Under the pieces are notes generated by a model. That model was given only the letters and a program-made list of their open reading frames with translations. It had not been told where the DNA came from and made no database searches. Below, one piece after another: positions 25,179-44,499 of a DNA stretch of 64,000 nt. The DNA is from Pseudomonadota bacterium (GTDB lineage: Bacteria > Pseudomonadota > Alphaproteobacteria > Caulobacterales > Caulobacteraceae). The position numbers were made by a program, and so were the translations under genes. The stretch lies in contig CAUJHO010000095.1 in NCBI GenBank assembly GCA_963205025.1, forward strand, positions 82,897 to 146,896. The letters run 5' to 3'. Within the stretch, counting starts at the first letter, position 1, and the number at the start of each line of letters is the position of its first letter.

Positions 25179-25202
25179 CCTTCTCCCGCAAGGGGAGAAG
25201 GG
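25179..25202. repeat. Short palindromic repeat CCTTCTCCC-gcaa-GGGGAGAAGG
   Basis: Same stem as the repeats flanking the DUF559 gene at 42.7/43.1 kb. Confidence 0.65.
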
Positions 25203-29930: not shown

Positions 29931-29958
29931 CTCCCTTCTCCCCCTGTGGGAGAAGGGA
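29931..29958. repeat. Short palindromic repeat TCCCTTCTCCCcctgtGGGAGAAGGGA
   Basis: Hairpin between the convergent EF-hand gene and purT; same family as 25179 and 42668. Confidence 0.65.
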
Positions 29959-42621: not shown

Positions 42622-42665
42622 CCCCCTTCTCCCCTCGGGGGACGAGGCAGCACAGCCCAACTTGA

Positions 42666-42723
42666 CCCCTTCTCCCCCCGGGGGAGAAGGTGGGCCACGA
42701 AGTGGCTCGGTTGAGGGGGTTCT
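42666..42723 (+). repeat. Left copy of inverted two-hairpin repeat bracketing the DUF559 gene
   Basis: ccccttctccccccgggggagaaggtgggccacgaagtggctcggttgagggggttct; partial extra copy of stem 1 at about 42624-42650. Confidence 0.88.
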
Positions 42724-42729
42724 ATCCGT

Positions 42730-43143
42730 ATGGACCAGACTGCGGATCGCACACGGCGGGCCCGTCGGTTGCGTTCGGGCATGACCGGGGCCGAGTCCGC
42801 TTTGTGGGAAATGCTGCGTGGCCGACGCCTCGATGGCCTGAAGTTCCGACGTCAGGCGCCGGTCGCCGGCTTCGTCGTGGATTTCTTCTGCCCGGAGTTG
42901 GAGCTGATCATCGAGCTGGATGGCGGGGTCCATCGGCTGCGCGAGGGCGAAGACGCTCTGCGTGATGAACGGCTTCGCGTGGCTGGGTTTGAGGTTCTGC
43001 GTTTTGACAATGCGGCGTTCGAGAACAATCCCGGCGTTGTTTTGAGCGCGATCCGGGAGAAGGCGAGGCAGCGGAAAGAGCCCCCTCAACCGTCCGCCTC
43101 CGGCGGCCACCTTCTCCCCCGAGGGGAGAAGGGTGCAGACTAG
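42730..43143 (+). CDS. DUF559 (Vsr-like endonuclease fold) protein
   Basis: RARRLRSGMTGAESALWEMLRGRRLDGLKFRRQAPVAGFVVDFFCPELELIIELDGGVHRLREGEDALRDERLRVAGFEVLRFDN. Confidence 0.93.
   Translation: MDQTADRTRRARRLRSGMTGAESALWEMLRGRRLDGLKFRRQAPVAGFVVDFFCPELELIIELDGGVHRLREGEDALRDERLRVAGFEVLRFDNAAFENNPGVVLSAIREKARQRKEPPQPSASGGHLLPRGEKGAD
43075..43134 (-). repeat. Right copy of inverted two-hairpin repeat; overlaps the 3' end of the DUF559 CDS
   Basis: Reverse complement ccttctcccctcgggggagaaggtggccgccggaggcggacggttgagggggctct aligns to the left copy. Confidence 0.88.
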
Positions 43144-43236: not shown

Positions 43237-43593
43237 ATGACGACCATTGTTCCCCAAAGCCTGTCGGAAAACGACCAGGCGATCCTGCGCCGCCTGGAGC
43301 GCCAGCCGGGCTTCTTCGAGCTGGCGGCGGGTCTGTTCAAGGACGGTCAGGCATGGCCGACGCTGGCGATGATGGCGGCCGAGGTCGGTCTGTTTATCGG
43401 CGGGGCCTGGTGCGCCTGGCGCTTCAGCCAGTCGGGCGAGGTGATCGAGGCGCTGCGCTGGGGCTTCCCGGCGCTGGGCATGATATTGATGTCCTTCACC
43501 ATCAAATTCGCTTTCTGGCCTGTCATGCACATCAACCGCCTCAAGCGTCAGGTCGCCGAGCTGGAGCTGCGTCTGACCCGCAGCGCCCGCTGA
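43237..43593 (+). CDS. Small two-TM membrane protein (DUF6768-like), paralogue of 44146 gene
   Basis: ILRRLERQPGFFELAAGLFKDGQAW...FIGGAWCAWRFSQSGEVIEALRWGFPALGMILMSFTIKFAFWPVMHINRLKRQVAEL. Confidence 0.8.
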   Translation: MTTIVPQSLSENDQAILRRLERQPGFFELAAGLFKDGQAWPTLAMMAAEVGLFIGGAWCAWRFSQSGEVIEALRWGFPALGMILMSFTIKFAFWPVMHINRLKRQVAELELRLTRSAR

Positions 43594-43598
43594 CGGCC

Positions 43599-44153
43599 GT
43601 GCCGTCCACCGAACGCTGGCGAGTGGCCGAGCTGGTGAGCGAGGCCCAGGGTGGGTCCGAGGTCGCGTTCGCCCTGTTGGCACGCGACTGGGATGCGCGG
43701 CTCGTCGCCCATGCCTGGCGTCTTCTCGGAGACCGAGAGGCGGCGCGCGAGGCGGCCCAGTCGGCCTGGCTGGAGATTGCACGCGGGATCAAGCGGCTGC
43801 GCGAGCCGGTGGCCTTCCCGGCCTGGGCCTTTCGCATCACCACCCGTCAGGCGGCTGCGATCATTCGCGCACGGCAGGGCCAGCGCCGCCTGGCCGCAGC
43901 TCTGGAACGGGCGGCCCTGACTGAACCCCAGTCGGCGCATCCGCCTGAGCCGGGGGAGGGCGCCGCCCTCAGCGCCGCCATCGGTACCTTACCGCCCGAT
44001 CATAGGGCGGCCATCGCCCTGCATCATTTCGAGGGGCTGTCGGTGGCCGAGGCCGCCGTGGCCATGGACGTTCCCGTCGGCACCCTCAAGACCCGCCTCA
44101 TGCACGCCCGGCTCAAGCTGAGAGCCGCGCTGGAAGGAGAGACCCATGACTGA
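43599..44153 (+). CDS. ECF-type RNA polymerase sigma factor (GTG start)
   Basis: Region 2 DWDARLVAHAWRLLGDREAAREAAQSAWLEI; region 4 IGTLPPDHRAAIALHHFEGLSVAEAAVAMDVPVGTLKTRLMHARLKLRAAL. Confidence 0.92.
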   Translation: MPSTERWRVAELVSEAQGGSEVAFALLARDWDARLVAHAWRLLGDREAAREAAQSAWLEIARGIKRLREPVAFPAWAFRITTRQAAAIIRARQGQRRLAAALERAALTEPQSAHPPEPGEGAALSAAIGTLPPDHRAAIALHHFEGLSVAEAAVAMDVPVGTLKTRLMHARLKLRAALEGETHD

Positions 44154-44499
44154 CCCCGATGCCAAGATCGACGCGGCCCTGCGCGACGAAGAGCTGAAAC
44201 TGTTGCAGCAGATCGGCGAGGAACCGGGCTTTTTCGATCAGGCGCTGGGCCTGTTTCGCACCCGCAACGCCTGGGTCAACTGGCTGATGATCGTCAGCCA
44301 GACGGCCCTGTTCATTGTCGGCGCCTATGCCGCCTGGCGCTTCTTTCAGGCCACGGATGTGTTGACGGCCCTACGCTGGGGCCTGCCGTCGGGCGTACTG
44401 CTGTTGATGTCGCTGATCATCAAGCTGTCGATGTGGCCCGAGATGCAGATCCGGTCCTTGCGCGGCGACCTGGCGCTGCTCGCGCGCGACCGGGGCTAG
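44146..44499 (+). CDS. Small two-TM membrane protein (DUF6768-like), overlaps the sigma gene
   Basis: LLQQIGEEPGFFDQALGLFRTRNAWVNW...FIVGAYAAWRFFQATDVLTALRWGLPSGVLLLMSLIIKLSMWPEMQIRSLRGDLALL; 8-bp overlap with the sigma gene. Confidence 0.85.
   Translation: MTDPDAKIDAALRDEELKLLQQIGEEPGFFDQALGLFRTRNAWVNWLMIVSQTALFIVGAYAAWRFFQATDVLTALRWGLPSGVLLLMSLIIKLSMWPEMQIRSLRGDLALLARDRG

Follow-up and report, generated by a model that had tools for sequence, protein, structure and literature searches.

The window analysed here, a 64,000-nucleotide stretch of a Caulobacteraceae genome, contains at 42730-43143 (plus strand) an open reading frame for a DUF559 protein, which, as had been predicted, is bracketed by inverted copies of one repeat. 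The left copy (42668-42718, plus strand) reads CCTTCTCCCC(CCG)GGGGAGAAGG - TGGGCCACGAAGTGGCTC - GGTTGAGGGG: its stem 1 is formed by positions 42668-42677 and 42681-42690 around a CCG loop, a hairpin linker of the 'CTC' type (stem 2) occupies 42691-42708, and the tail GGTTGAGGGG (42709-42718) mirrors the purine arm of stem 1. The right copy lies on the minus strand and reads, from 43132 to 43082, CCTTCTCCCC(TCG)GGGGAGAAGG - TGGCCGCCGGAGGCGGAC - GGTTGAGGGG, with stem 1 at 43132-43123 and 43119-43110 (loop TCG), a stem 2 of the 'GAC' linker type at 43109-43092 and the tail at 43091-43082. This second copy falls within the 3′ end of the ORF and encodes the last ~20 residues of the DUF559 protein. 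As the left repeat is of the CTC and the right one of the GAC linker type, the pair is a heterodimer. No recombinase was detected within the cassette, which is therefore unlikely to be a classical IS or MITE.

The stem-1 motif had also been predicted to occur elsewhere in the window, and it does, in reduced form. At 42625-42648 (plus strand), directly 3′ of the stop codon (42621) of a fadJ-type gene, another copy is represented by its decayed stem 1, while the motifs at 25179-25201 and 29934-29956 are bare stem-1 hairpins without linker or tail, either left over from full copies or of the common terminator-like kind and merely similar in sequence. Beyond the cassette, at 43353-44499, inspection of the translation by eye suggests a gene like those of ECF-type sigma factors amid small membrane-protein ORFs.

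When single-stranded, each window repeat folds into two hairpins (z = -2.3 for the left and -3.0 for the right copy, relative to dinucleotide shuffles). Chance is excluded as the source of these repeats: the inverted-repeat score at the locus is 69, with a score of 40 reached by 1 of 815 control windows, and the strict stem-1 pattern has 31 copies in the 2.54-Mb genome, as opposed to none for the reversed pattern. The original prediction of a two-hairpin repeat was correct for both hairpins, but it missed the tail, which would belong to the folded structure as well. It also missed that the source genome has a second DUF559 gene (contig C35, 33338-33655), bracketed by an inverted pair of another two-hairpin repeat, CTCCTCCCC...GGAGGGGT.

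A survey of 126 copies at 67 loci, 116 of them good matches, revealed a common plan: stem 1 is followed by a linker, either ~3 nt long or folded into a hairpin (stem 2), and then by a tail in mirror symmetry to the purine arm of stem 1, T being allowed for A. The tail shifts with the arm. For instance, the window-type arm GGGGAGAAGG is paired with the tail GGTTGAGGGG or GGATGAGGGG, GAGAGAGGG with GGGTGAGTG, CGGGAGAAGG with GGATGAGGGC, GGGGGAAGG with GGATGGGGG, AAAGGGGGA with AGGGGGATT, and GGGCGGAGA with AGAGGCGGG. The mirror register leaves 5 mismatches over 41 distinct arm/tail types; as the tail position was picked as the best mirror match, the evidence lies not in this number alone but in its contrast with swapped tails, which give 130 mismatches on average (minimum 100 in 2000), the direct register giving 129. 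Since mirror repeats are not a product of DNA rearrangement, they are most naturally explained by selection on a fold-back structure. It had also been claimed that stem 2 differs in sequence and yet keeps its pairing, and this is general: pairing is kept in 79 of 83 hairpin linkers, compared to 30% after shuffling, although their sequence is nearly free (52 different 5′ arms), and among 38 cassettes the left and right stem-2 sequences differ in 35 and both pair in 35.

Both window copies offer 10 out of 10 triads, their pyrimidine (Y) arm, purine (R) arm and mirrored R segment being able to form G*G.C, A*A.T and T*A.T. Judged by this architecture, the repeat belongs to a known class, the intrastrand triplex motif (BoxC/PIT/TM), with the qualification that the window copies, whose hairpin linker is 18 nt long, are outside the ITxF search definition, which admits loops of 1-6 nt only (PMC4666352). 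Other DUF559-linked copies have linkers of 3 nt. Triplex motifs, on which earlier work by Hoyne and Maher is cited in the same paper, are present in more than 260 genomes, and the E. coli TM has been shown by CD and NMR to fold into a triplex in vitro, although a stable triplex was not seen by in vivo footprinting (Holder et al. 2015, PMC4666352). The repeats with hairpin linkers may fold likewise. Rfam contains no RNA family that comes near its cut-offs. Like our repeats, those of E. coli form inverted two-type pairs, five in number and always type A with type B (PMC4666352), the counterpart here being mostly CTC with GAC. By contrast, they have been described without a companion gene, and no transposase- or integrase-like activity or remnants were found next to TM sites (PMC4666352).

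The window protein comprises a full DUF559 domain (PF04480, E=7.5e-34, 116 bits against a cut-off of 20.6). Residues E22, D51, E62, D64, H68 and D75 are invariant in 49 homologues and intact in the window protein, and E22, D51, E62/D64, H68 and D75 are putative active-site residues. The closest fold to its predicted structure (pLDDT 87) is 3hrl, a solved Neisseria protein related to DUF559, followed by I-Bth0305I and, more weakly, E. coli Vsr; profile comparison also matches I-Bth0305I, a homing endonuclease. Sequence and model together indicate that the gene product is a Vsr-like PD-(D/E)XK nuclease. A dN/dS of ~0.1-0.16 against relatives implies that the gene is maintained under purifying selection. 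DUF559 genes, of which there are up to 13 per genome, are nearly absent from phages (1 of 50,697) and rare on plasmids (39 of 72,556), which fits a mostly vertical, REPIN-RAYT-like life and not that of an infectious transposon. A role in anti-phage defence was considered and rejected, PADLOC giving weak matches only, to restriction-type nucleases. Caulobacter crescentus VsrA and E. coli YcjD belong to the same family and have corresponding active-site residues. VsrA has been read as a mismatch-repair enzyme linked to a cytosine methyltransferase and tied to the SOS response, with repeats not linked to it (PMC12907096). In the open-access literature, we found no paper tying DUF559 or ycjD to repeats and none on the function of YcjD. 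The original prediction placed its novelty in the link between nuclease and repeat, and this link is indeed unreported in the literature we found, but the known triplex class of the repeat (PMC4666352) had gone unrecognised.

The association was measured as the inverted similarity between the 300 bp on each side of the DUF559 domain. Inverted repeats flank 53 of 70 DUF559 loci in the family, compared to 1 of 815 control windows, and 15 of 30 loci phylum-wide, compared to 3 of 184 controls. When each gene is considered with its own flanks, DUF559 genes have inverted pairs in 29 of 41 cases and other genes in 3 of 159 (p=4e-22), so that the predicted excess over other genes is borne out. Among cross-phylum named loci, fetched with E. 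coli YcjD as the query, inverted flanks are found at 24 of 72 (0 of 419 controls), and a structure-only detector identifies the triplex motif in either flank of 32 of 72 (3 of 419 controls). The pairing of DUF559 and repeat recurs across many bacteria of several phyla, including E. coli, and some cases are on plasmids, e.g., in Deinococcus and the cyanobacterium Pseudanabaena. On a plasmid of Sphingomonas parapaucimobilis, a DUF559 cassette with inverted triplex repeats lies between the subunit genes of an NAD(P) transhydrogenase operon. Repeats of this kind also lie between other genes. Chance or intergenic bias as a source of the association is ruled out by the window, gene and cross-phylum controls.

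The repeats also show cognate specificity, their type following the nuclease. On a tree of 61 DUF559 proteins, the repeat type changes 18 times, against 37.4 when shuffled (0 of 200 shuffles as low), a clear signal of the covariation with phylogeny that had been predicted. A simple Mantel test of repeat against protein distance gives a weaker one, with a rho of 0.14 in the whole set (largest of 2000 permutations, 0.15) and of 0.27 in the genus (permutation maximum, 0.26). Paralogues within one genome differ in repeat type, as observed for the two DUF559 genes of the source genome and for a relative (G135) in which four genes have four types. Repeat number likewise tracks DUF559 gene number across 149 family genomes (rho 0.59; within-genus permutation p=2e-4), the median being 1 copy in genomes without DUF559 and 31 in those with it. 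Repeat-rich genomes without the nuclease had been named as something that would speak against the link, and they exist in part: more than 10 copies are kept in 9 of 35 family genomes without DUF559, an absence call that may overlook some members, as the PF04480 search was silent in the E. coli control, even though YcjD of K-12 is annotated as a DUF559 protein. Nevertheless, repeat number rises with DUF559 number both overall and within genera. Five genomes with no DUF559 match (G001, G081, G111, G121 and G080) have 30-95 copies, with 95 in G001, and recent loss, incomplete assembly or another enzyme could each account for such cases.

Further tests took the repeat, and not DUF559, as the starting point in the genome examined. 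The repeat type that flanks one DUF559 locus (L097) is confined to 3 of 61 genomes of the genus. One of these (G188) has an inverted pair of it with a spacing of 450 bp, in which an orthologous DUF559 gene is located, as well as a gene-less pair of the same repeat. In the complete genome G127, 78 of 91 full copies form 39 close pairs, all 39 tail-to-tail; 38 of the pairs are gene-less, with gaps of 43-72 bp, and the sole wide gap (330 bp) encloses DUF559. On contig C1 of G127, the two repeats of a pair differ in linker type, the usual combination being CTC with GAC, and the window cassette has the same make-up. Dispersed gene-less inverted pairs occur in the source genome as well as in G127. 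Internal deletion of the cassette was considered as their origin and is not claimed, shared interior 5-mers not being above shuffles and the interiors of gene-less pairs showing no significant similarity to the cassette ends.

Related genomes differ in the state of individual sites, in agreement with the empty sites that had been predicted. At the G188 locus, the full cassette is present in G188, G443 and G135, a solo repeat in G195, G476 and G460, and an empty site, where the two neighbouring genes overlap, in G139, G444, G192 and others. In G475 the window site is empty and its neighbours are the same, and in further relatives the end of the same upstream gene carries gene-less pairs. This presence/absence polymorphism shows gain or loss; as most statistics come from species representatives, recent movement is not datable from it, and the sites compared give no exact ends and no clean target-site duplication.

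The association led us to expect that ycjD, the E. coli DUF559 gene, adjoins a TM element, and this was borne out. The published TM element no. 9 (1,351,204-1,351,239) lies between fabI and ycjD, ~170 bp downstream of the latter, and the 3′ end of ycjD is a TM-like remnant that encodes the terminal SPSP. In this region of K-12 (NC_000913.3, 1348500-1354500), the fabI-ycjD gap also contains part of the ycjD 3′ end a second time and, with the published motif, looks like a decayed tandem DUF559 cassette. In the Enterobacteriaceae, where ycjD orthologues are widespread, the inverted pair around the gene is mostly gone, and some genomes retain a downstream motif alone.

Among known systems, the closest in organisation is that of REP/REPIN-RAYT (TnpA-REP), in which the enzyme gene is also located between inverted palindromic repeats, gene-less inverted pairs are numerous, the enzyme is specific for its repeat and the location is mostly chromosomal. 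However, RAYT is an HUH Y1 transposase, whereas the enzyme here is a PD-(D/E)XK nuclease (PF04480), and the GTAG tag of REPs is replaced by a triplex-forming tail. As DUF559 is not an HUH transposase, the cassette is not a RAYT system and the likeness is one of organisation only. RAYT was also considered as the driver of the repeats and rejected for this genus, the Y1 transposase (PF01797) being absent from the source genome and from 60 of 61 genus genomes. Alphaproteobacterial palindromic repeats without a dedicated transposase have been reported before, namely the CGTC-tagged REPs, but these are other repeats, with an 8-9 bp stem and a CGTC tag (PMC3733652). Of the characterised mobile nucleases, I-Bth0305I, a Vsr-like enzyme of the EDxHD family, comes closest in both fold and profile; it is, however, an enzyme of a mobile intron, whereas DUF559 genes stand free in the chromosome and have triplex repeats on their flanks.

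We consider it probable that the locus is a cassette whose two parts, the DUF559 nuclease and the triplex repeats inverted tail-to-tail, belong together, and that the cognate nuclease recognises and cuts the fold and host repair copies the pair. In this model, stem 1 would fold when the repeat becomes single-stranded, on the lagging strand or at a stalled fork; the linker, be it 3 nt or stem 2, would reverse the strand, and the tail would then lie as a third strand on the purine arm. The cognate DUF559 would recognise this fold and nick or cut at its base, and host repair or recombination would copy the pair, either alone or together with the gene, to another site, which may be new or allelic. 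These host steps must be assumed, because a lone PD-(D/E)XK nuclease lacks strand-transfer chemistry. Gene-less pairs would be non-autonomous copies of the cassette, as REPINs are to RAYTs. DUF559 is therein best read as the dedicated nuclease of these repeats, analogous and not homologous to RAYT; of the RAYT-like mobiliser or domesticator that had been proposed, the association between nuclease and repeat is observed and the mobilising role would follow from the model. Against the cassette reading count the 9 repeat-rich genomes without DUF559, the loss of most ycjD pairs in the Enterobacteriaceae and the reading of VsrA as a mismatch-repair enzyme (PMC12907096).

The same observations might be explained if DUF559 served the host, removing or resolving triplexes or hairpins at the repeats during replication, or acting in a VSP-like repair; the flanking repeats would then provide autoregulation, or retention of the gene through dependence on the nuclease, and the repeats would spread otherwise. 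Such a role would agree with the purifying selection on the gene, its scarcity in phages and plasmids, the wide distribution of ycjD orthologues, the tie of VsrA to the SOS response (PMC12907096) and the block of DNA polymerase by PIT elements in vitro (reported in PMC4666352). We regard it as unlikely, however: the many DUF559 genes of some genomes, with paralogues that have different repeat types, look like selfish diversification, and a mere clean-up enzyme predicts the opposite of what is seen in genomes without DUF559, which are usually nearly repeat-free.

If the gene alone homed, the nuclease cutting gene-less pairs (or alleles) and the gene being copied into the break by recombination, the repeats would be only its target, spread by something else. 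The match to I-Bth0305I in fold and profile points in this direction, as do the shared orientation and heterodimer make-up of cassettes and gene-less pairs and the finding that, at one site, some relatives have the full cassette and others a solo repeat. Homing by itself nonetheless leaves unexplained why repeat number and type follow the nuclease, and phages, a common home of such nucleases, nearly lack the gene, so that we give this alternative only a small chance. Finally, DUF559 genes could simply be small, poorly constrained genes that tolerate insertions of an intergenic repeat whose mobility depends on some unrelated transposase, making the association a by-product. Repeats do occur between other genes and inverted pairs at a few control genes, but the size of the enrichment, the cognate specificity, the repeat-first finds, the recurrence across phyla and the absence of RAYT from nearly all genomes of the genus make hitch-hiking of this kind very improbable.

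The pairing of DUF559 with these repeats connects two old puzzles. BoxC/PIT/TM repeats, known since the 1990s, have been linked to genome instability, with no function or mobility gene found, and DUF559 is a widespread nuclease family of unsettled function; at present, DUF559 is the strongest candidate for the enzyme behind the spread of these repeats. The cognate pairing is directly testable in E. coli K-12, which has ycjD and 23 TM copies, or in Caulobacter, through vsrA. More tentatively, and with somewhat less than even confidence, we propose that the cassettes may represent a cross-phylum class of mobile elements, in which a lone Vsr-like PD-(D/E)XK nuclease would read a DNA triplex and spread paired repeats, a non-homologous reinvention of the REPIN-RAYT strategy that would give DUF559 a primary function and BoxC/PIT/TM repeats an origin. 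With the cognate pairing, DUF559 would also be a triplex-reading enzyme, and the damage that VsrA does to DNA would have an alternative reading.
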